A stretch of DNA of 36,467 bases from a virus, in the IMG/VR virus record IMGVR_UViG_3300020020_000107, positions 1 through 36,467 of that record, one strand, 5' to 3'. The position numbers and the translations under genes are program-made. Under the pieces are notes generated by a model, which worked only from the letters and a program-made list of their open reading frames with translations, made no database searches and was not told where the DNA came from. Positions 2,124 through 31,655 of the stretch are shown here, one piece after another; positions within the stretch are counted from its first letter, which is position 1, and each line of letters starts with the position of its first letter.

Positions 2124-2527
2124 GATCGGCCCTCCATCGATTCGCGTTGCCGTTTCCGGTTGTGGCAGCGGTGACAGAGCGCTTGGAGATTCGAGAGGTC
2201 GAGCCGCCGCGGATCGGCCAGGCCGGCAATCGGGACGATGTGATCGAGCAGCTCGGCCGGTTGGTAGCGCCCGGTCCGGGCGCACACCGAATCCCGGGTC
2301 TCCGGCGCGCTCGGATGCCGGCACCCGCAGAGCCCGGCCCGCGGGACGCGGAGCCGCCAGAGCTCGGCGAAGACCGTCTCGCGGAACTGCCGCCAGGCGC
2401 GATCGTACCCGAGGCGCGCGGCGCTCGGCCGCCGGCCGCCAGGCGTGTGCCCGCGGCCGTGCGCGGGACACGGCTCGACGTGCGGACACCCGAAGACCGC
2501 ACACGCCTGCGCGAGGCGCTCAGGCAT
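2120..2527 (-). CDS. HNH endonuclease
   Basis: 135 aa. The HNH core is LLDHIVPIAGLADP, then RLDLSNLQALCHRCHNRKR at residues about 92-128. It contains the catalytic DH, the Asn and the zinc cysteines of the CxxC-HNH family; a further CGCRHP..C lies before it. The N-terminus also has GCPHVEPC..HG, a common start of phage HNH proteins. Such nucleases often sit beside terminase genes and help DNA cleavage during packaging. If the window ends are joined, this gene lies about 2.6 kb upstream of terS. It overlaps its upstream neighbour by 8 nt. Confidence 0.85.
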   Translation of the reverse strand: MPERLAQACAVFGCPHVEPCPAHGRGHTPGGRRPSAARLGYDRAWRQFRETVFAELWRLRVPRAGLCGCRHPSAPETRDSVCARTGRYQPAELLDHIVPIAGLADPRRLDLSNLQALCHRCHNRKRQRESMEGRS

Positions 2528-2912
2528 CGCGCGGCGGCGCCTCGAGGGTCAGGCAGGTCACGATCGCGTCAATCACCGCGTCCGACAACCCCTCACCCAT
2601 CTGCTGGTCGTCCCGTTCGCCGAAGCGCACCTTGAGACGTTCGCGCATGTCCCGCCGCCGGAACTCCTGCCACGTCGGCTGCGCGTCTTCCTCGGCCTCG
2701 CACGCGAGACAGACCAGCGGATCGCCATGGGTGGGGCACGCGCCGTCAGGGCTAGTGTGCTGCTCGTTCTCGTGCCCCTCGAGCACGGCGCGCATGGCGG
2801 CCATCGCGGCGGGAATCCCCGCGTCCTCGGCGGTGGCGTCCATGGCCTCTGAGAGCACGTCATCAGCGGCCTCCCACGCTTCGTAGAGCTCCTCATCGGA
2901 GTAGCGCGTCAT
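2520..2912 (-). CDS. Hypothetical protein with SDE and AMRAVLE modules, 130 aa
   Basis: An acidic protein starting MTRYSDEELYEAWEAADDVL, then IPAAMAAMRAVLEGHENE, a CPTHGDPLVCLAC segment, and a C-terminal module (LKVRFGERDDQQMGEGLSDA) shared with the gene at 1794-2123. The start resembles MSERFSDEV of the genes at 3494-3910 and 4110-4505, and AAMRAVLE occurs in all three. The paralogues therefore appear built from exchangeable pieces. The start uses a TGATG overlap with the upstream gene. Function unknown. Confidence 0.65.
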   Translation of the reverse strand: MTRYSDEELYEAWEAADDVLSEAMDATAEDAGIPAAMAAMRAVLEGHENEQHTSPDGACPTHGDPLVCLACEAEEDAQPTWQEFRRRDMRERLKVRFGERDDQQMGEGLSDAVIDAIVTCLTLEAPPRDA

Positions 2913-3268
2913 CAGTAGGCTCCATGCTTCTCACTGTCTGACGCCGCCAGCCGCTTGCCCGTGGAGAGGTAACAACACACGGCGTTCACGGCGTCGTTCC
3001 TTGGCTTGAAGCTGCACTCGCAGGTATCGTCCTCTGGGCAGTCGTCATCGTGGTCAGCGGCGTGGTCCACGACATACTGCTCGTGCAGCGCCACCTGCTC
3101 TGGCGTGGGTGCTTGCCCATCGCCGTGCTCGTAGGCGTCCACAAAGGCGTGCAGCAGGCTCACCATCACATCGCGCCGTTTGAAGTCCCCGCTCATCTGC
3201 CGCATGTAGTCGCGGAACTCGCTGATCGCCGCGCGTGCGGCCTCGACATTCAGTATTCGCTCACTCAT
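2912..3268 (-). CDS. Hypothetical protein, 118 aa, Cys/Asp-rich middle
   Basis: Starts MSERILNVEAARAAISEFRD with the ATG inside a copy of the gene-junction repeat (3264-3295), which supplies GGGAG about 6 nt upstream. The middle is very acidic (DHAADHDDDCPEDDTCECSF) with three Cys, perhaps a metal site. The C-terminus is AASDSEKHGAY, a diverged form of the ASDGSPR tail found on neighbouring proteins. No known domain recognised. Confidence 0.6.
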   Translation of the reverse strand: MSERILNVEAARAAISEFRDYMRQMSGDFKRRDVMVSLLHAFVDAYEHGDGQAPTPEQVALHEQYVVDHAADHDDDCPEDDTCECSFKPRNDAVNAVCCYLSTGKRLAASDSEKHGAY

Positions 3269-3519
3269 CGCGGGCTCCCGTCTGACGCCGCGCCCACGGC
3301 TTGATCAGCCGCGTGTGTGGCCAGCGCCATCTGAAGCGCCTCCTGCCATGTGTTCCCTGTGCCGTAGATGTCCACCGGCCACGGCGGTGGGGCGTTGGGA
3401 TCGCGCGTCAACCTTCCGATGACGAAGCTATCCCGCTCACAGTAGGCCACGGCCCAGGGGCCAAGGAGTTTCGTGGCTGCCCCTTCGAGCGCCTCAATGT
3501 TCTTGTTCAACATCGCCAT
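3265..3519 (-). CDS. Hypothetical protein, 84 aa, ASDGSPR tail
   Basis: I chose the ATG at 3519 (MAMLNKNIEALEGAATKLLG) because it directly follows a junction-repeat copy with GGGAG; a second ATG six bases on is also possible. The sequence KLLGPWAVAYCERDSFVIGR, then NTWQEALQMALATHA, looks like a small alpha/beta domain of the kind seen in phage genes of unknown role. It ends GAASDGSPR and its stop overlaps the next ATG. Its first bases overlap the end of the upstream gene by 26 nt. Confidence 0.6.
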   Translation of the reverse strand: MAMLNKNIEALEGAATKLLGPWAVAYCERDSFVIGRLTRDPNAPPPWPVDIYGTGNTWQEALQMALATHAADQAVGAASDGSPR

Positions 3520-3910
3520 TTCGCGGGCTCCCGTCTGACGCCGCGCCAGTAAACTTTCTCGCCGCACGTTGGAGGTCGGATTCCTGCATATAGCTCAGTC
3601 GGTGCGTGAGCACGTTCCTGACGGCCACGCGCCCGCGTGAATCTCGACAGACCGACACATAGTCACGCGCCAGCATCACGCGCACCACGCGCCCATCGCC
3701 GAGGTTGAACTCGTGCCCTGCTCGTAGCCCTGACGCCTCTTCGTCAGCCGCGCGCTTCTCTGCAATGCCGCGTAATGCGGCGTTCCTGAGTTGCGTCATG
3801 TGTTCCTCTAGGACGGCCCGCATCGCGGCAATCGCATCGGCCTCGACTTTCTCCGGCAGGTAGGCGGCAATCGCCTCGCGCAATACCTCATCCGAGAATC
3901 GCTCACTCAT
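3494..3910 (-). CDS. Hypothetical MSERFSDEV-type protein, 138 aa
   Basis: The N-terminus MSERFSDEVLREAIAAYLPE, followed by ADAIAAMRAVLEEHMTQ, is shared with the genes at 4110-4505 and (weaker) 2520-2912. The rest differs: a GHEFNLGDGRVVRVMLARDY beta segment and a LQRAARKF helix. Near the C-terminus it has GAASDGSPR, but the usual stop is missing, so the protein continues through NGDVEQEH into the next gene. The ATG at 3910 lies in a junction-repeat copy and overlaps the stop of the upstream gene. Confidence 0.65.
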   Translation of the reverse strand: MSERFSDEVLREAIAAYLPEKVEADAIAAMRAVLEEHMTQLRNAALRGIAEKRAADEEASGLRAGHEFNLGDGRVVRVMLARDYVSVCRDSRGRVAVRNVLTHRLSYMQESDLQRAARKFTGAASDGSPRNGDVEQEH

Positions 3911-4113
3911 CGCGGGCTCCCGTCTGACGCCACGGCCGCCAGCGTGTGTTCCCACTCTTGAACCTCACGCAACGTCGCGATCAGTCGCCGACGACACACA
4001 ACGCCGCCCGTGCTGTTATCGGCGCTGGTCCAGTCCACCGCCCATGACTGAAACGGCCATCGGCCCCTGCGCTCGATGCGGTTGATCACGAGCGCGGTCA
4101 GGGCCAGCCTCAT
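3907..4113 (-). CDS. Hypothetical protein, 68 aa, ASDGSPR tail
   Basis: A short basic protein: MRLALTALVINRIERRGRWP, then FQSWAVDWTSADN, RRRLIATLREVQEWEH and the ASDGSPR tail. The start at 4113 overlaps the upstream stop (ATGA) within a junction-repeat copy whose sequence reads GGACGCCCGCG. The body resembles neither neighbour, so the repeated ends appear to have been joined to an unrelated middle. No function can be assigned. Confidence 0.55.
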   Translation of the reverse strand: MRLALTALVINRIERRGRWPFQSWAVDWTSADNSTGGVVCRRRLIATLREVQEWEHTLAAVASDGSPR

Positions 4114-4505
4114 CGCGGGCGTCCGTCTGACGCCGCCCCCGTGGATGGGGCGAGGACTCGTCGCGCTGAACACACGACACACTCGTCCCCGCTGAAGTCC
4201 CGACATTCACAGGACAGGTCAGCCACGCGCTCCAACACGTCACGCATGTCCGCAAGGGCGATGCGCGATTGGCCGCGTAGCCGCGCGTTCTCTGTCATCA
4301 ACTGCGCGTTCTCAGCCGTCAGTTCATCTACCGCCAGAAGCGCCGTGAGGATCACGTTGGAGTCGTGCCCCTCTAGGACGGCCCGCATCGCGGCGACAGC
4401 CTTATCTTCTGGCGAAGGATCGCCCGGCACCTCGGCCGTCGTCCATGCCACACACGCGGCATCCCACGCACGTCGCCACACCTCATCCGAGAAGCGCTCA
4501 CTCAT
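4110..4505 (-). CDS. Hypothetical MSERFSDEV-type protein with coiled coil, 131 aa
   Basis: Starts MSERFSDEVWRRAWDAACVA, then AVAAMRAVLEGHDSN as in its paralogues. A leucine-rich helical stretch follows (LTAENAQLMTENARLRGQSR), likely a short coiled coil, and then a cysteine cluster CECRDFSGDECVVC that may bind zinc. It ends GAASDGRPR, a one-residue variant of the shared tail. The ATG overlaps the stop of the small membrane-protein gene upstream. Confidence 0.65.
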   Translation of the reverse strand: MSERFSDEVWRRAWDAACVAWTTAEVPGDPSPEDKAVAAMRAVLEGHDSNVILTALLAVDELTAENAQLMTENARLRGQSRIALADMRDVLERVADLSCECRDFSGDECVVCSARRVLAPSTGAASDGRPR

Positions 4506-4642
4506 GGCTGCTCCAGAATGGCCGTGAGAATAAACCCGACGCCCATGAGCAGGGCAAACAGCACGAACAGGCCTACCAACGCCCAACGGAGGCGGCGATA
4601 CGGTGCGAACGCCCGCTCGAGCACCTCATCGTGGTCCGCCAT
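4502..4642 (-). CDS. Single-pass membrane protein, 46 aa
   Basis: MADHDEVLERAFAPYRRLRW is a short charged N-terminus. It is followed by one hydrophobic helix (ALVGLFVLFALLMGVGFILT) and AILEQP. Positive residues before the helix suggest the N-terminus stays in the cytoplasm. AGGAG lies before the ATG, and the start and stop overlap both neighbours (TGATG and ATGA), which supports it as a real gene despite its size. Function unknown. Confidence 0.65.
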   Translation of the reverse strand: MADHDEVLERAFAPYRRLRWALVGLFVLFALLMGVGFILTAILEQP

Positions 4643-5400
4643 CAAAAGTCTCCTGGGGCCAGCGGCCCATCACCGTCCTTGTTGGTGACCGCCTCCCACT
4701 TACAGCTGCCTTCGTGCCCTTTCGGGAGGCCGCAGACGAAATCGCGCGTGTCGCCAGAGAGGCGTCTGGTCAACGCGTTGTCGCACCGCTCCCGGGCGGC
4801 GGCGAGCGCCTGCTCCGCCTTCAGCGCGCGCGTCTCCCAGTGGTCCGCGTAGCTCTTCACGTTCACGTTGCGCGCGGCGATCTCAATCACGCCCCACGTC
4901 TGCCACTGCTGCATAACGGCCGCGCACGCGGTGCGTTGGGCCTGCTCAATAACCGGCGTGAGCACCTCCCGAAACACCGTATACACGCCCGTCTGGCCGC
5001 GCTGGGCTTCCTGATAGAGGCGTTCTAGCACCCCGTCCGGCAACACGGGCGCCGGCTTCTGAGCGCCCGCGATCGGCGTGGCGCCCAAGAGCCGGCCGTG
5101 CTCGTGGCAGCGGTCGTGACGCAGCCCGAGGGCATCGGCGCGCCGTGTCACAGGTTCAGGTAAATCTTCGGCCGTTTTCTTTACCGGCGCGATCTCGATC
5201 ACCGCGTGCACCGCCGTGGCTCCCGGCACCTTCTCCGCTCGCGCCACGATGCACCGCGCACACAGCAGGCCGCTGCCGTCCTCGCTCTCGGGGAAGATCA
5301 GCACCCATTGCGAGCGTGGCAGCAGCAGGTCCAGCGGGAAGTCCACGTAGGGCAGCCCGCAATCCGCACAGCGCAAGGGCGTCGGGAAGATCACCGCCAT
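4642..5400 (-). CDS. Zinc-ribbon protein with CGLPKGHEG motif, 252 aa
   Basis: The N-terminus has a CADCGLPY zinc pair at residues about 11-18 and a second CARC at 47-50. The middle (about 140-215) is helical with a coiled-coil look (ETRALKAEQALAAARERCDN). The C-terminus holds FVCGLPKGHEGSCKWE, a Cys/His motif seen at the end of many small phage proteins. It is the largest protein of the accessory block and is preceded by GGGGAGTG. A nucleic-acid or protein contact role is plausible but unproven. Confidence 0.65.
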   Translation of the reverse strand: MAVIFPTPLRCADCGLPYVDFPLDLLLPRSQWVLIFPESEDGSGLLCARCIVARAEKVPGATAVHAVIEIAPVKKTAEDLPEPVTRRADALGLRHDRCHEHGRLLGATPIAGAQKPAPVLPDGVLERLYQEAQRGQTGVYTVFREVLTPVIEQAQRTACAAVMQQWQTWGVIEIAARNVNVKSYADHWETRALKAEQALAAARERCDNALTRRLSGDTRDFVCGLPKGHEGSCKWEAVTNKDGDGPLAPGDF

Positions 5401-5406
5401 GACAGG

Positions 5407-5667
5407 TCACTCCCCATGGGTGCCGGCCAGGCGCTCGTCTGACGCCGCGCCCGTCAAACGGTGCCCGTTGGGGCACCACGTAAACGCCTTGTTTCGCCCA
5501 AGCTCCGCGCCGCACTGCGGACAGCAGCGCATGTGCGCGGCGATCCAGGCGTGACAGCCTTGCAGGGTCAAGCCGGTCATCAGCAACCGATCCCCTTGCG
5601 TGATGACATAACTCCCAACCAGCCCGTTGGGTTGGATGCGCATCGGCGTTCTCGTCTGCTCACGCAT
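5407..5667 (-). CDS. Zinc-ribbon protein, 86 aa
   Basis: The start at 5667 (MREQTRTPMRIQPNGLVGSY) uses a TGATG overlap with the upstream gene; an in-frame Met eight residues on is an alternative. A zinc ribbon CCPQCGAELGRNKAFTWCPN, then GH, lies at residues about 49-72. The C-terminus reads TGAASDERLAGTHGE, a copy of the shared ASDGSPR tail that has lost its stop and runs further. Function unknown. Confidence 0.6.
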   Translation of the reverse strand: MREQTRTPMRIQPNGLVGSYVITQGDRLLMTGLTLQGCHAWIAAHMRCCPQCGAELGRNKAFTWCPNGHRLTGAASDERLAGTHGE

Positions 5668-5978
5668 CAGTTGACTTTCAGATCGCCACACGCGCATGTC
5701 TCTGGCCGGAAGAATCCACTCCGGCGACAGTCGCAACAGTGCAGGTCAACGGCGAGTCCGTGCGAACACGCTACGTCAGGCTGGCTCCTGTCTGACGCTT
5801 CTGGCAGCAGCATCGCGTCCACGCCTTCCTTGCACAGTTGGCGGTTGATGGCCTCCCGCACGTAGTTGCGAATGGACAGATGGCGCAGGCTGGCCGCGTG
5901 GCGGAGGTAGTCCACCATCTCGTCGTTGCAGTCCAAGGCGTTGCGCCACCCCTGATTGATGCGCTTCCGCTCACTCAT
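5667..5978 (-). CDS. Likely fusion protein: RHH-like N-terminus plus zinc-ribbon C-terminus
   Basis: 103 aa. The first part (WRNALDCNDEMVDYLRHAAS, LRHLSIRNYVREAINRQL) looks like a ribbon-helix-helix or similar DNA-binding fold. It is followed by LLPEASDRSQP, which matches the shared C-terminal tail ASDGSPR, and then by a Cys/His segment (HCCDCRRSGFFRPETCACGD). The junction repeat inside the frame suggests that two adjacent genes fused when the stop was lost. The start lies 8 nt inside the end of the upstream mini-gene. Confidence 0.6.
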   Translation of the reverse strand: MSERKRINQGWRNALDCNDEMVDYLRHAASLRHLSIRNYVREAINRQLCKEGVDAMLLPEASDRSQPDVACSHGLAVDLHCCDCRRSGFFRPETCACGDLKVN

Positions 5979-6072
5979 CGCTGGTTTCGTCCTTCAATGC
6001 GCCGAACAGGATGAGCAGTCCCACGCCGGTCGCCACGCCGAGCAGGAACAGGAGCAGGCCCGTGAACGTCAT
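5971..6072 (-). CDS. Single-pass membrane peptide, 33 aa
   Basis: MTFTGLLLFLLGVATGVGLL, followed by ILFGALKDETSDE, is almost entirely one transmembrane helix with an acidic tail. AGGAGA lies just upstream of the ATG, and both ends overlap neighbouring genes (ATGA upstream, 8 nt downstream). Its small size makes it easy to miss. Function unknown. Confidence 0.55.
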   Translation of the reverse strand: MTFTGLLLFLLGVATGVGLLILFGALKDETSDE

Positions 6073-6485
6073 GCGTGTTCTCCTGTAATCAGCCGCGCCA
6101 CCCGTAATGCTTCTTCCAGCGCGTCGATCTGCTTCATCGCGAGGGCATATTTCTCGTCAGCGAGGCGGACATCGTCCGCCAGGCGCTCGAGGTGCGCGAG
6201 CAAGCGGACATCTTTCTCCAGGCGCTCGAGGTGCGCGAGTAAGGCGAGCACCACGTCTGGCGAGGCCGCGGCGATAAACTCGGCATTCTCGCGTGTGGGC
6301 TGCATCTTGTAGGTATCGAGCTGCAACACCTTCGTGGACGGCCAGGCCCACCCATTCGTGTGGCCTTTCACGTCCCCGACGATGGCGTAGTCGTTGTGCG
6401 CGCCTTCGATGAACCACGGGCCCGGGGTCGCGGCGGACGCCAGCGTCTTCAAGGCCGCGCGGCGGTCAGGCGTCAGGTCCGTCAT
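6069..6485 (-). CDS. Ead/Ea22-like protein, 138 aa
   Basis: The sequence ALKTLASAATPGPWFIEGAH, followed later by NAEFIAAASPDVVLALLAHL, fits the Ead/Ea22 family found in the accessory regions of many phages (family recalled from the TPGPW and NAEFIAAA motifs). The C-terminal half is a helix with a tandem repeat LLAHLERLEKDVR / LLAHLERLADDVR, encoded by an exact-length 39-nt duplication. The gene starts with an ATGA overlap. The role of Ea22-like proteins in this setting is unknown. Confidence 0.75.
   Translation of the reverse strand: MTDLTPDRRAALKTLASAATPGPWFIEGAHNDYAIVGDVKGHTNGWAWPSTKVLQLDTYKMQPTRENAEFIAAASPDVVLALLAHLERLEKDVRLLAHLERLADDVRLADEKYALAMKQIDALEEALRVARLITGEHA
6165..6242. repeat. 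39-nt tandem duplication
   Basis: Two in-frame 39-nt units (6165-6203 and 6204-6242) differ at only a few positions and each add 13 residues to the coiled-coil end of the Ea22-like protein. The high identity suggests a recent slippage or recombination event. Confidence 0.75.
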
Positions 6486-8045: not shown

Positions 8046-8465
8046 TTACTTCCGGACCCACCCGCCGGCCTCGCACCACGCGAGGAAGGCGTCGATCCCG
8101 CCGACGATATGTGGGACACGCGCCCGCACGCAGAAGTCGCGAAACTCGAGTTGCGCGACGGAGAGCGTCCCGCTCTTGCCCTTGCACTCGACCCACAGGA
8201 ACGTCCACCCGCGCGACACGTCGGTGCGCGCGCTGTTCGCCGGCGGCAGGAAGATCGCCAGGTCAGCGATCCCTTCTGTCTGCCTGGTGCCTTGGTCCTG
8301 GTTGCGGACGCCGCAGAGCGCGCAGTACTGCGCGCGGCGCGTGCCGAGCACATAGGCGCGGCCACCGAGTAGGTGCACGAAGTTCAGGATCGAGGCTTGC
8401 TCGGTCTTCTCGTCGGCCGCCGGCCGCGGGAACGTGACGCCGCGCGAGGTAATCGTCTCGCTCAT
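8046..8465 (-). CDS. VRR-NUC domain nuclease
   Basis: 139 aa. The PD-(D/E)XK-type VRR-NUC core is visible: TEGIADLAIFLP (catalytic Asp at about 70), then FLWVECKGKSGTLSVAQLEF (E-x-K plus the conserved Ser/Gln) and VPHIVGG near the C-terminus. Stand-alone VRR-NUC proteins are common in phages and are thought to act in DNA repair or as resolvase-like nucleases; activity here is inferred. The ATG at 8465 overlaps the DUF7694 stop (ATGA). Confidence 0.85.
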   Translation of the reverse strand: MSETITSRGVTFPRPAADEKTEQASILNFVHLLGGRAYVLGTRRAQYCALCGVRNQDQGTRQTEGIADLAIFLPPANSARTDVSRGWTFLWVECKGKSGTLSVAQLEFRDFCVRARVPHIVGGIDAFLAWCEAGGWVRK

Positions 8466-14851: not shown

Positions 14852-16087
14852 ATGTTGACCGTCAAAGAGATCGAGGCCGCGAAGGCCGACCCCGCCCGCC
14901 AGTGGCGTCTGTCCGACGCCGAAGGCCTGTACCTGCTCATCCGGCCGAACGGGAAACGGCTCTGGCGGTGGGACTATTCGTTCCAGCGCCGTAGGAACAC
15001 GATCTCCTTCGGCATCTACCCGATCGTCGATCTCGCCCGCGCGCGAGAGAAGCGCCGCGAAGCGCAGCGACTCATGGACCACGGGATCGATCCTGGCGTG
15101 AAGCGCCAGGACGAGAAGCGCGCGATCGCGGCGCCCACCGATACCTTCAACCTTCTGGCCGACGCCTGGCTCGCCCAGAAGGAGCGGGCCGGGAAGCGGC
15201 CGCGCACCCTGCTCAAGCTCGGGTCGATCCTGGACAACTACTTGCGCCCCACGCTCGGGCCGAAGCGCATCGGTGCACTCACGGCGCCCGACGTGCTCAA
15301 GGCCCTCATGCCGATTGACGAGAAGGGCCTCGCTGAGACCACGCACCGCGCCCTGTCGATTTGCCGGGAAGTCTTCGCCTACGCGATCGCCCACGGGCAG
15401 GCCCCGCACGACGTGACGATGACCCTCGCGAAGGCGCTCACGCCCGTCCAGACCACGAACTACCCGGCGATCACCGAGCCGGGGGCACTCGGTCGCCTCA
15501 TGCGCTCGATCGCGGGGTGCAATGGCTCGGTGATCGTGGTCGCCGCGCTGCGCCTCGCCCCGCTCGTCTTCGTCCGCGCCGGCGAGCTGCGCGCCGCCGA
15601 GTGGAAGGAGTTCGACCTGGGCGCGAAGGTGTGGCGGATCCCCGCCGGCCGCATGTCGCATACCTTTTCGAACGGGCCGCACCACGTCGTCCCGCTCTCA
15701 CGCCAGGCGCGCGCGATTCTCGCGGACCTGCACCCGATCACCGGTGGCGGGCGCTACGTCTTCCCGAGCCTCCGCCATGGGTCCCGGCCGCTCTCCGATA
15801 TGGCCCTCACCGCGGCGCTGCGCCGGTTGGGCTACGGCCCCGATGAGCAGAGCGTCCATGGCTTTCGCACGATCGCGTCGACGCGCCTCCGCGAGATCGG
15901 CTTCCCCGATGCGCTCGTCGAGCTCCAGCTCGCCCACCGCATCAAGAATCCCGTCGAGGCCGCCTACAACAAGGCGACCCTGCTCGAGCGCCGGACGGAG
16001 ATGATGCAGGCGTACGCCGATCACCTGGACGCGCTCTGCCGGCAGGCGGAGGCCGAAGACGCGGCCGCGAGGCGTGGCGCCGCCTAG
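14852..16087 (+). CDS. int: Tyrosine integrase, P4 type
   Basis: 411 aa, the usual length of this family. An N-terminal arm-binding DUF4102-like domain (LTVKEIEAAK..WRLSDAEGLYLLI) is followed by a core-binding domain and the catalytic domain. Catalytic residues: Arg247 (AGELR), His278 region (GPHHVVPLS), His336-x-x-Arg339 (HGFR), His362 (LAHR) and Tyr372 (VEAAYNKA). GGAG lies 10 nt before the ATG. The enzyme recombines attP with attB, often at the 3' end of tRNA genes, which agrees with the tRNA-Gly-like core 266 nt upstream. A TGCAGTAACGG palindrome near its start suggests local control. Confidence 0.95.
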   Translation: MLTVKEIEAAKADPARQWRLSDAEGLYLLIRPNGKRLWRWDYSFQRRRNTISFGIYPIVDLARAREKRREAQRLMDHGIDPGVKRQDEKRAIAAPTDTFNLLADAWLAQKERAGKRPRTLLKLGSILDNYLRPTLGPKRIGALTAPDVLKALMPIDEKGLAETTHRALSICREVFAYAIAHGQAPHDVTMTLAKALTPVQTTNYPAITEPGALGRLMRSIAGCNGSVIVVAALRLAPLVFVRAGELRAAEWKEFDLGAKVWRIPAGRMSHTFSNGPHHVVPLSRQARAILADLHPITGGGRYVFPSLRHGSRPLSDMALTAALRRLGYGPDEQSVHGFRTIASTRLREIGFPDALVELQLAHRIKNPVEAAYNKATLLERRTEMMQAYADHLDALCRQAEAEDAAARRGAA

Positions 16088-16346: not shown

Positions 16347-16382
16347 CGGACAAGAAATGCTATTTCTTGCTATCCTCCCTCC
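16347..16382 (+). promoter_or_regulatory. ParDE promoter with operator palindrome
   Basis: CGGACA (16347-16352) and TATCCT (16371-16376) are 18 nt apart and resemble -35 and -10 boxes. Between them lies the palindrome CAAGAAAT-GCT-ATTTCTTG (16351-16369), a likely ParD-binding operator. The parD ATG is 6 nt after the -10 box and no ribosome site precedes it, which suggests a leaderless transcript. Confidence 0.6.
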
Positions 16383-16649
16383 ATGAATATCAGCCTCCCG
16401 CCCGAGCTCGTGAAGCTCGTGCACGCCAAAGTCGAGAGCGGTCGCTACGCCTCGGCGAGTGAAGTGATCCGCGAAGCGCTCCGCGCCATGGACGCGCCGG
16501 CCGCCGAGGCGCGCCGCCGCGACCAGGCCGCCGCCGCCGACCCCTATGAAGGCATCCGTCAGGGCCTCGAGGACCTCGCGGCTGGGCGGACGCAGCCGGC
16601 GCGCGCGGTGCTCGCAGACTTCCGGCGGGCGCATGGCCTACCGCGTTGA
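16383..16649 (+). CDS. parD: ParD-type antitoxin (CC2985 family)
   Basis: 88 aa. MNISLPPELVKLVHAKVESG, then RYASASEVIREALRAMD, is the ribbon-helix-helix DNA-binding part of type II ParD antitoxins (strand MNISLP, then helix, then SASEVIREALR). The C-terminal tail (YEGIRQGLEDLAAGRTQPAR) would wrap the toxin. It overlaps parE by 17 nt, and an operator palindrome lies in its promoter, consistent with autorepression by the complex. Confidence 0.9.
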   Translation: MNISLPPELVKLVHAKVESGRYASASEVIREALRAMDAPAAEARRRDQAAAADPYEGIRQGLEDLAAGRTQPARAVLADFRRAHGLPR

Positions 16650-16944
16650 GCTGACCGCCCGCGCGGTCGCCGACCTCGAGGCGCTCTACGCGCACATCGC
16701 GGCGGCCACCTCCAGGCAGGCCTTGCTCTGGTTCCGGAAGTTGACCACCACCCTGGAGAGTCTCGAGACGTTCCCGGATCGCGGCGCGCCGGCGCCCGAG
16801 CACCCCGCGCTCCGCCAGCTGCTCTACGGGACGGCCCGCGCGCGGTATCGCGTCATCTACCTGGTGGACGCCGAGCACCAGGTCGTGACCGTGCTCCACA
16901 TCCGGCATGGCGCGCGCGCGGCGGCCGAGGATCTGGACCGCTAG
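16633..16944 (+). CDS. parE: ParE/RelE-superfamily toxin
   Basis: 103 aa, the usual ParE length. MAYRVELTARAVADLEALYA has the N-terminal strand and helix of the fold. ALLWFRKLTTTLESLETFPD, then RGAPAPEHP..LRQLLYG, YRVIYLVDAEHQVVTVLHIR and HG follow the ParE pattern. ParE toxins poison DNA gyrase; RelE relatives cleave mRNA, so the target is inferred. It lies between int and the tail genes and probably helps keep the prophage. Its stop shares CTAG with the convergent tail gene. Confidence 0.9.
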   Translation: MAYRVELTARAVADLEALYAHIAAATSRQALLWFRKLTTTLESLETFPDRGAPAPEHPALRQLLYGTARARYRVIYLVDAEHQVVTVLHIRHGARAAAEDLDR

Positions 16945-29286: not shown

Positions 29287-29617
29287 AGGTCGGCCTCGCC
29301 AGTGGGTGCAGGAGGCGGCGGAGCACCGAGCGCAGGTACGCCGTCTGCTCCGGCGTCTCGGGCTTCTCTTCCGGCTCGTCGCCGCGGAGGCGCCAGAGCT
29401 CGCCGGTGTAGGTGAGAATCGCGCCGAGCACGAGCGCGAACTCGGGATCGACGGTCGGATCGGTCGCGGTCGTCCAGGGGTTCTCGATCCGGTCGATGTG
29501 CATCAGGACGCGCGCCGTCGCCGTCGCGATCTTCGATTCGAGGTCCGCTTGCGCGTAGTCGTCCTCGAGGTTGAGGTGCGCCTTCGCCTGCGCGTACGTG
29601 ACCAGTTGGAGGGCCAT
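29279..29617 (-). CDS. Head-tail connector (gp6-like)
   Basis: 112 aa from the ATG at 29617 (TGATG overlap). [40 protein letters not shown] and IDR match the gp6/YqbG-like connector start (vtl.eaK.hLr...d..D..i...i.aA...v). LVLGAILTYTGELWRLRGDE fits the conserved mid-helix. It forms the ring below the portal. It lies after the collagen-like gene. Confidence 0.85.
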   Translation of the reverse strand: MALQLVTYAQAKAHLNLEDDYAQADLESKIATATARVLMHIDRIENPWTTATDPTVDPEFALVLGAILTYTGELWRLRGDEPEEKPETPEQTAYLRSVLRRLLHPLARPTFA

Positions 29618-30237
29618 CAGTACCGCACTCCTGGCGCGCCCTGCTCGCCGCGCGTGCCGGCGGGGCCGCGCTCTCCGCGGTCGCCGGTCTTCCCGCGCTC
29701 GCCGGCCTTCACCGCGAGCCGCCAGGCCGCCACGCCCATCGCCGGCCGCTCCTGGGTCGCGGTCTGACAGATCCAGAGCGAGCCCGCATAGGTGACCGCG
29801 TCGCCGGGGTCGTAGGCCGTGGCCTTGTCGTAGTACCCGCGGTCGAGGACGACCGGCAGCGTCCACTGGCCGATCGCGGTGCCGTCCGCGCGCCGGACCG
29901 TGACGGTCCGGCCCTCGCACTCGAACCGCACGCCCTCGAGCGTCCCGTCGTGGCCTGGCGCGCCGTCCTTCCCGGCCACGCCGTCCCGCCCGGGCGCGCC
30001 GTCGAGGCCCGCGCGACCATCGAGACCCGGCACCCCGTCGCGGCCGGGCGCGCCGTCCGCGCCGTCCGCGCCCGCCGCGCCGGCCGGGCCTGGCGGGCCC
30101 GGCACCCCGGGGACGCCGTCCCGCCCATCGCGCGGCACGGGCAGGGCGGCCATCGCGGCGCGGACTTCGCGCGCCACCAGGCGGACGAGGCCGGGCGCGA
30201 GGGCCTCGACCAGGCGCTGGAGCGTCGTGGGCGTCAT
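29617..30237 (-). CDS. Collagen-like structural protein
   Basis: 206 aa, starting ATG at 30237 in an ATGA overlap with the portal stop. A helical N-terminus ([20 protein letters not shown]) is followed by about 20 Gly-X-Y triplets (residues about 35-100, e.g. [19 protein letters not shown]), a folded middle ([20 protein letters not shown]) and a second short collagen block near the C-terminus ([20 protein letters not shown]). The middle ([21 protein letters not shown]) resembles a carbohydrate-binding 5/12-type module. Probably a trimeric virion decoration or fibre; location inferred from the head operon. Confidence 0.8.
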
Positions 30238-31655
30238 GCGGCCCTCTCGTCGAGCCCGCACGCCTTCTCAAAGGCCACGGCGAGGGCCGCGGTGTCGAGG
30301 GCGTCGGGGTCCTCGTCGTCCGCGTCGTCGTCCGCGCCGGCGGCGGCGTCCGGCGGGGCCGGCGCGGGCGTGGTGCCGAACGGGTCGGCCTTCGCGTCCC
30401 GCTTGGCGAGCGCCGCGAGCGAGTAGTTCTGCTGCTGGAGGTACGGCGAGTCGCCGCCTGAGACCGGGCCGAGGTCGAGGTACCGGAAGCGCGCCTCGTT
30501 GGGCGACATGCCGCCGCCCTTGATCGCCTCGGCGGAGGTCTTCACCTTCGAGGCCGTATCCATGCGCATCAAGTCGTCGAGGTCCATCTCCGTCCCGATC
30601 GGGCGGCCGGCCTCGTTCTTCGTCATCTCGAGGCCGTCGTCCATCAAGAGCTCAATGCACTCGATGAGGCTCTGGAGACACTGCGAGTAGTAGAGGATCT
30701 GGAGGGTCTCGGGATTCGTGTTCGGCGGGAGCGGGCCGATCCCGATCATGTAGGGCGGGACCCGGAAGGCCGTGCACGCATTCTCCGCGGTCCATTTCAA
30801 CTGCTCGATGAGCTGCGAATCGGTGGCGGAGATCGCCATCTTTTCGTAGGTCAAGCCGCCGGCCAGGACCGCCACTTGCCCGGCGTTGTCGCCGGTGAAG
30901 TTCAAGTGCCACTTCGCCTTGATCTCCTCGAGCGTCCGTTCGTCCACCTGGCCCGGCGCCGTCAGCACGCCGGACGGGACCGATCGATTGGCAAAGAGGC
31001 GCGACGAGTGGCTCTGGATCTGGATGCCCGTCATCGCCGACACCCCGCACGCGTAGAGCGGCGAGACGCCGCAGAGCGGGTGATAGAGCGGGACCATCAC
31101 GTCGTGAATGATTTCCGCCTGCGGCACGACGACCGCCTCGCTCAGGCGCGCGAGCTTATCGGGCCCGACTTTGTAGTAGACCGCGCCATCGGGCGCGACG
31201 AGCGGCGTCACGCAGGTCGGATCGAGGAGGTAGAGCGCGGTCACGATCCCGCGCCCGTCCCGCTGCTTGATGGCGTACGTGTTGCCGTGCGCGAGCTTCG
31301 AGACCACCCATTGCTCGTAGAACTTGATCCGGTTCTGCCACGGATTCGGCTTGCGCAGGACCGGGCTATGCGCGGTGTTCTCCGTCTCGCGCCAGATCCC
31401 GTCCGTGTCCTGCTCGACCAGGCGAATCCGGAGCTTCCCGATATCCGAGGCGATGAGCGTGATGCAGGCATACACGGCCGCATGCGTGAGGACCGTCTCG
31501 GGGTTGACGGTCACGTTCTGCTGCCAGGCCCCGGGATAGCTCTCGCGCACCACCGGCCACCAGCCGCCGCCGCCCCGCGCGGGCAGCGACGCGCCCGCGG
31601 CCGGGCCCGCGGCCCGCGCCTGCGCGCGTGAACGGAAGGAGCGCCACCACGTCAC
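30234..31655 (-). CDS. Portal protein, HK97 family
   Basis: 473 aa, GTG start with AGAGAGGA 5 nt upstream. [32 protein letters not shown], then [20 protein letters not shown] and [20 protein letters not shown], is the HK97 portal pattern. [20 protein letters not shown] and [16 protein letters not shown] also fit. The dodecameric portal forms the DNA channel and docks the terminase. Unusually, the gene lies downstream of the capsid gene rather than between terL and protease. Confidence 0.93.

Follow-up and report, generated by a model that had tools for sequence, protein, structure and literature searches.

Short shared blocks in an array of overlapping phage genes as candidate handles for the exchange of genes and gene halves

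Between a VRR-NUC-like gene (8046-8465) and an HNH endonuclease gene (2120-2527), an array of small genes is encoded in the window, that is, the 36,467 bases of the IMG/VR viral record IMGVR_UViG_3300020020_000107, which represents a phage known from metagenome data alone. Array genes, cores and blocks all lie on the minus strand, and coordinates given without a contig name are positions in the window. The question raised by this locus is why one short element recurs where one small gene ends and the next begins. An earlier note had described seven copies of this element, termed the core here, and had proposed that it is a recombination handle through which genes are swapped. When related phages were searched, the core turned up in four further IMG/VR contigs, and instead of a fixed gene order, changes in gene content were seen at it; as far as the assembled sequences go, the proposal is supported, but in a wider form. 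The array is best read as consisting of interchangeable segments, in which three short blocks, i.e., the core (block C), a gene-start block A and a mid-gene block B, serve as handles for recombination over short homologies and keep translation coupled; a probability of roughly 0.7 is given to this reading. The handle as first conceived was incomplete: the core and the MSERF block move separately, breakpoints also fall at block B within the gene, and the gene bodies, taken to be mostly unrelated, are partly re-used modules, although some of the C-modules (the parts following block B) are indeed unrelated.

Blocks at the gene joints and within the genes

The sequence GCGTCAGAC occurs seven times on the minus strand within 2.9-5.8 kb; the seven CGTCAGA 7-mers of that strand lie at plus-strand coordinates 5797, 5444, 4132, 3929, 3540, 3287 and 2943, all in the range described earlier, and the window's two remaining CGTCAGA 7-mers are on the plus strand. 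While the count of seven stands, three copies (5797, 5444 and 2943) are partial, consisting of just GCGTCAGAC and scattered common bases, yet in frame as (A)ASD, and the one at 5797 is located inside an open reading frame (ORF) rather than between genes. With the 21-nucleotide (nt) core TCAGACGGGAGCCCGCGATGA and at most 3 mismatches, 4 places were found versus 0 expected from 100 dinucleotide shuffles. The composition ascribed to the element, namely ASDGSPR plus stop for the upstream gene, GGGAG as ribosome site and an ATGA start for the next gene, applies in full at 3930 and 3288; the copy at 4133 reads ASDGRPR and GGACG instead, and that at 3541 has no stop, the upstream gene running 8 residues further (NGDVEQEH) and the next start being AAATGG. 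The full stop/start (ATGA) arrangement is thus present in three of the seven copies, with GGGAG intact in two of those three. Altogether, 17 full cores are contained in five records, each adjoining a gene start whose ATG is at, or at most 2 nt from, the ATGA position, and in most of them GGAG lies 6 nt ahead of the ATG. At such stop/start overlaps translation is generally coupled; as GGAG precedes by 6 nt an ATG that overlaps the upstream stop, a swap at the core would leave a working joint.

Comparison with related contigs set three short blocks apart: the core (ASDGSPR with stop/start), block A (MSERFSDEV) and, in mid-gene, block B (AAMRAVLEGH). The last one, GCCGCGATGCGGGCCGTCCTAGAGGGGCAC, found at 4394, 3829 and 2801, had been overlooked. 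It had also been stated that the core often continues into MSERFSDEV, which did not hold up; core and MSERF block are separable, because MSERFSDEV follows the core once (3910), the start at 3268 reads MSERILNVE, and the MSERFSDEV at 4505 has no core. The core occurs with or without block A, and other starts following it include MSFYPAPRK, MKQTMTDS and MRLALTAL.

The blocks are conserved as nucleotide sequences and not merely as peptides. Where copies agree in a residue, they use the same codon in 96.5% (core), 86% (A) and 73% (B) of cases, compared to 46%, 54% and 51% expected from codon usage, and in backbone controls of the same phages (portal, capsid and VRR-NUC-like genes) codon identity is 44-55%, i.e., at saturation. 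The rare codon TCA (2.5% of Ser codons) is present in 17 of 17 cores, and CTA (0.7% of Leu codons) in 9 of the 14 B blocks. On approach to the core from the 5′ side, identity between pairs of copies climbs from 0.25 (-20 to -11) over 0.50 (-10 to -1) to 0.99 within it, and at the 3′ edge of B it drops from 0.81 to 0.36; the 3′ edge of A is less abrupt, but at most block edges near-chance identity is reached in about 10-20 nt. Cores differ by 1.04 per 24 nt across phages versus 1.12 in one phage, and A blocks by 3.08 per 30 nt versus 2.75. Because copies from different phages are as alike as copies from the same phage, the blocks would represent a shared pool rather than genome-specific repeats.

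These figures bear on a scenario of tandem duplication and divergence, in which the genes are old paralogues, the blocks are held by protein function, and no exchange takes place there. The proteins do have N-terminal and middle motifs in common, and an array in the sister phage L156 (see below) contains a longer paralogous similarity (76% over 104 nt). Protein function alone, however, would not preserve synonymous or rare codons; further, the block edges are sharp, the pairings of N- and C-modules differ among phages, and some core-ending genes contain neither the A nor the B motif, which makes duplication quite improbable as the explanation.

The constant position of the ATG in all 17 full cores, and of GGAG in most, would also suit a regulatory or translation-initiation element bound by the ribosome, an RNA or a protein, with the mosaicism nearby being of the ordinary kind. 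A parallel is offered by the start-associated sequences (SAS/ESAS) of Cluster K mycobacteriophages, repeats which carry a Shine-Dalgarno core 3-7 bp before the starts of varied non-structural genes (PMC3203893); GGAGCCC, the end of the SAS consensus, stands directly ahead of the start in both. When the 13-bp sequence GGGATAGGAGCCC was used for scanning with at most 2 deviations, the core had 4, and the window gave a single match, off the array, versus 1.04 expected. Unlike the window set, SAS have not been described as including coding or mid-gene blocks. The two kinds of phage have no known kinship, and the common GGAGCCC is probably a coincidence. An initiation element would leave the mid-gene block B and the rare codons of the coding blocks A and B unexplained, and other junctions of the window array function without a core. 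Nor is the core an unusually stable RNA fold (z -1.0 to 0.4), and there is no excess of promoters or terminators: a scan, which covers sigma-70-like sites only, found 0 in 2400-6200, and terminator-like sites number 1 versus 1.8 expected. This role on its own is considered unlikely.

Exchange of modules between phages

Among 2.9 million viral contigs, repeated cores were found only in L007, L008 and L011, and a single core in L018/L155; for carrier phages this is a minimum figure. Searching with an alignment of the block-protein family yielded no contig beyond the four known carriers, and a search for related loci with the VRR-NUC-like gene found nothing. By gene content the carriers form three groups, which are the window, L011 with L155, and L007 with L008. 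Proteins of L011/L155 are 47% (portal) and ~40% (capsid) identical to those of the window, and their terminase is of the same family (phrog_9); the terminases of L007/L008 belong to other families (phrog_2/979), and DNA matches between L007/L008 and L011/L155 are confined to the blocks and to shared or attached modules. In L011 the array lies on the opposite strand, between the terminase and capsid genes. The close terminase relatives of the window (L109, 83%; L108, 85%; L116/L156, 73%) have kept the backbone but contain, in the stretches compared, neither a core nor a block-gene match; the interval between VRR-NUC-like and HNH genes spans 5.5 kb in the window, compared to 2.1 kb for L109 and 0.2 kb for L156. 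As an aside, the terminase gene of L007 (3785-5440) has an apparent intein-like insert (read-through ...FLAGERGIPTHNSYCARW...), which is missing from the terminase of L008.

Breakpoints between modules fall at the blocks. The N-module of window gene 4110-4505 (N1) is 86% identical to L008:5553-5694 over 142 nt, from the ATG to 6 nt past B, while the C-modules of the two genes are unrelated. Likewise, L008:1308 and L011:1697 share a 166-nt N-module (93% identical) reaching from 3 nt ahead of the core to 4 nt beyond B, outside of which the sequences, C-modules included, are unrelated; the C-module of L008:1308 matches L007:8975 from B on, where the N-modules differ. L007 and L008 are colinear (~79-86% around terminase and portal), and in this colinear DNA L007:3788 and L008:5553 have the upstream gene, the start block and the C-module in common but the segment from A to B replaced. 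Further, L008 has one ATGA-linked gene (5792-6238) added relative to L007. In four gene comparisons all 8 breakpoints lie in blocks, which make up 20% of the arrays, giving a nominal P of ~2e-6 that is optimistic, the comparisons having been picked for their clarity and the alignments being anchored by the blocks themselves.

Repeats at the ends of arrayed small genes, together with a tyrosine integrase (14852-16087), might indicate a site-specific system of the integron or invertase type, with the core as attachment site of a dedicated recombinase. Breakpoints, however, are found also at A and B, both unlike the core, and sister phages with related integrases (49-51% identity) have no core. 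Compared to integron cassettes, the core lacks an unusual RNA fold and the integrase belongs with the usual phage integrases (phrog_1), no search specific for attC or IntI having been made. Such a system is very improbable.

A second set of blocks is present in L156, the sister phage without core, which has an array of its own of six overlapping small genes (L156:14169-15348) between the HNH and terminase genes. Its start block (GCCATGACCGACGCGCCGTTCACCGAGACGCACCGCG, MTDAPFTETHR), middle block (AALAEIDRLT) and end motif (RRPLHWK) are unrelated to the blocks of the window but recur in contigs including L164, L173, L174/L167, L175/L177/L178 and L176, and some of these carriers are only 28-36% identical to the window in terminase. 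Up to the start block, L176 and L173 are 91% identical across 1.1 kb, and beyond it L176 is ~90% identical to L156; in comparison with L178, the block delimits an entire gene of L173, and L174 has one gene more than L176 between two conserved neighbours (the left one judged by eye). A protein of the L156 array had no match in the phage collection. A tblastx comparison of the window with the sister arrays was dominated by GC-rich noise, and its result was not used.

Illegitimate recombination followed by selection for intact genes, a general model of phage mosaicism (PMC3029335), might be considered instead, combined with assembly artefacts at shared repeats, the contigs being metagenomic. Such joints would not leave common blocks of 24-60 nt at both ends, though; typical reads are longer than the blocks, and records of separate samples repeat the same arrangement (L167/L174, 99% over 1062 nt; L175/L177, 95.5% over 1022 nt). 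This account is very improbable, as is a dedicated recombinase. Several points do weigh against the blocks being recombination handles: the breakpoints are few and picked as stated above, so that P is nominal; all contigs are metagenomic assemblies, in which chimeric joins at short repeats are possible; the crossover in L176 is ~70 nt or less from the contig end; and the window phage yielded no homologue of RecT, ERF or Rad52. Swapping at the blocks is deduced from mosaics in these assemblies rather than observed.

The array and its phage

The features of the array are collected in Table 1.

Table 1. Genes, cores and blocks of the small-gene array (minus strand)
Feature	Position	Remarks
Small gene	4110-4505	A, N-module N1, B, unique C-module, core
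Small gene	3494-3910	A, B, core (core read through at gene end)
Small gene	3907-4113	flanked by two cores, no A or B
Small gene	3265-3519	flanked by two cores, no A or B
Small gene	2912-3268	starts in core/A junction, ends in partial core
Small gene	2520-2912	block B; overlaps HNH gene
Larger gene	4642-5400	no blocks; C-module (ERCDNALTRRL..VCGLPKGHEGSC) 59% identical to C-module of L011:1219-1461
Two small overlapping genes	5407-5978	5407-5667 and 5667-5978; partial cores
Core, exact	3265-3288	GCGTCAGACGGGAGCCCGCGATGA; ASDGSPR, GGGAG; ends gene 3265-3519, starts gene 2912-3268
Core, 20-nt match	3518-3541	no stop at ATGA position; next start (3519) displaced 2 nt
Core, exact	3907-3930	ASDGSPR, GGGAG; ends gene 3907-4113, starts gene 3494-3910
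Core, 2 mismatches	4110-4133	GACGGACGCC; ASDGRPR, GGACG not GGGAG; ends gene 4110-4505, starts gene 3907-4113
Partial core	2936-2944	GCGTCAGAC; near 3′ end of gene 2912-3268 (AASDSEKHGAY stop)
Partial core	5437-5445	GCGTCAGAC; near 3′ end of gene 5407-5667 (GAASDERLAGTHGE stop)
Partial core	5783-5798	GCGTCAGACAGGAGCC; inside ORF 5667-5978 (EASDRSQPD)
Junction sequence		CGTCAGACGGGAGCCCGCGATGA; Shine-Dalgarno-like site with stop/start
Block A	3881-3910	ATGAGTGAGCGATTCTCGGATGAGGT; gene start (MSERFSDEVL), immediately after core
Block A	4476-4505	MSERFSDEVW; no core upstream
Block A, truncated	3257-3268	ATGAGTGAGCGA; MSER, start reads MSERILNVE; after core
Block A, truncated	5967-5978	ATGAGTGAGCGG; MSER; no core upstream
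Block B	4365-4394	GCCGCGATGCGGGCCGTCCTAGAGGGGCAC; mid-gene, AAMRAVLEGH
Block B	3800-3829	AAMRAVLEEH
Block B, diverged	2772-2801	AAMRAVLEGH
Block B, form for scanning		GCCGCGATGCGGGCCGTCCTAGAGG

In ORF 5667-5978 the in-frame partial core parts a helical-looking N-terminal part from a Cys-rich C-terminal part, as in two fused cassette genes; it is possibly a former junction that is now fused. What the gene products do can be guessed at from size and position, as small accessory factors. Neither the phage nor the plasmid collection contained a match to a block protein of the window, and no convincing Pfam family was found for the block proteins; weak matches of single members, such as that to NinF (E 0.05), were taken as chance. 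Two family members match phrog_10312, a family listed without function. The AlphaFold model of the product of 4110-4505 shows three helices, the second of them long and the third short (pLDDT 84, pTM 0.42), and gave no fold assignment.

The window holds the gene set of a temperate tailed phage, encoded mostly on the minus strand, with large terminase (phrog_9), portal, primosomal protein, tyrosine integrase and HNH endonuclease; on a circularly permuted genome, the HNH gene would precede the terminase genes. The VRR-NUC-like gene was named by eye, its match to phrog_824 being weak. The exact 24-mer core had no match in one genome per bacterial or archaeal species and thus gives no clue to the host. 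Relatives of the window terminase in Planctomycetota metagenome-assembled genomes are only ~43-50% identical, too distant for a host call, and their terminase loci contain no core at up to 4 mismatches. Adjoining the integrase, a small overlapping pair on the plus strand (16363-16944), ParD-like and RelE/ParE-like by eye, is likely a toxin-antitoxin system. On the minus strand, 29617-30261 encodes a collagen-like Gly-X-Y repeat protein with an 18-nt periodic repeat, by eye virion- or tail-associated.

Mechanism and relation to known systems

Most likely, the exchanges come about by homologous recombination over short stretches of identity. Small accessory genes that overlap in translation would be assembled from interchangeable segments, with the junction block C (stop, ribosome site, ATGA start), the gene-start block A and the mid-gene block B as homology handles. 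Where co-infecting phages or prophages carry copies of a block, recombination between these copies, general or phage-encoded (RecA or Rad52-like annealing), would insert, delete or replace whole genes from C/A to C/A and swap protein halves at B, and each exchange would keep the frame, the stop/start overlap and the Shine-Dalgarno-like site. Block homology would then be the cause of the exchanges, and coupling the target of selection. That Rad52-like proteins give rise to phage mosaics through relaxed recombination has been shown by experiment (PMC3945230). Annealing recombinases are encoded by some of the phages considered here: ERF by L155, a carrier of the core, L109 and L176, and RecT by L156 and L174. 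Since neither the fragments L007, L008 and L011 nor the window yielded one, the host or a co-infecting phage would need to supply the recombinase there.

Overlapping start/stop joints are also known from the nin region of lambda. For lambdoid phages, conserved boundary sequences have been described and gene swapping by homologous recombination at them has been proposed (Clark et al. 2001, for HK620; Susskind and Botstein 1978; both as related in PMC3029335). The likeness consists in a short conserved sequence at gene joints, here 17 full cores in five records, and in gene contents of relatives that differ with the break at this sequence. The differences are that here the block is coding in both neighbours, that an internal block shuffles protein halves, and that the same blocks occur in phages with otherwise non-matching DNA. 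The PeSLs, or mobile regulatory cassettes, of T4-type phages are likewise short repeated elements, by which genes are shuffled as modules (Arbiol et al. 2010; Comeau et al. 2014; as cited in PMC4503421); they consist of promoter and stem-loop, whereas the core of the window carries translation signals instead. In the mycobacteriophage Island3, a ~50-bp C-terminal repeat of genes 67 and 68 was read as recombination between ~50-bp sequences (PMC3029335); it resembles the present case in the nucleotide-level similarity of two neighbouring gene ends, but is one event, in contrast to multi-copy arrays with three block types in several phage groups. The best reading is that the window system is a variant of known phage boundary sequences; apparently new are the coding joint, the reassortment of protein halves at an internal block, the occurrence in dissimilar phages and the second, independent block set.

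It is tempting to go further and suggest, tentatively and with the odds rather against it, that phages of an uncultured host community share at least two vocabularies of short DNA blocks, kept in their nucleotide sequence as common handles, by which phages with unlike structural genes trade in-frame modules, whole genes or halves of genes, and so produce small chimeric proteins in combinatorial fashion. An old question is whether the joints of phage mosaics lie at gene boundaries through the homology of conserved boundary sequences or through selection after random joining. With blocks that can be found in several copies and in two independent sets, inside genes too, and with synonymous sites as control, the homology model becomes directly testable. 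The blocks may further serve as sequence tags for finding fast-exchanging small phage genes of unknown function.

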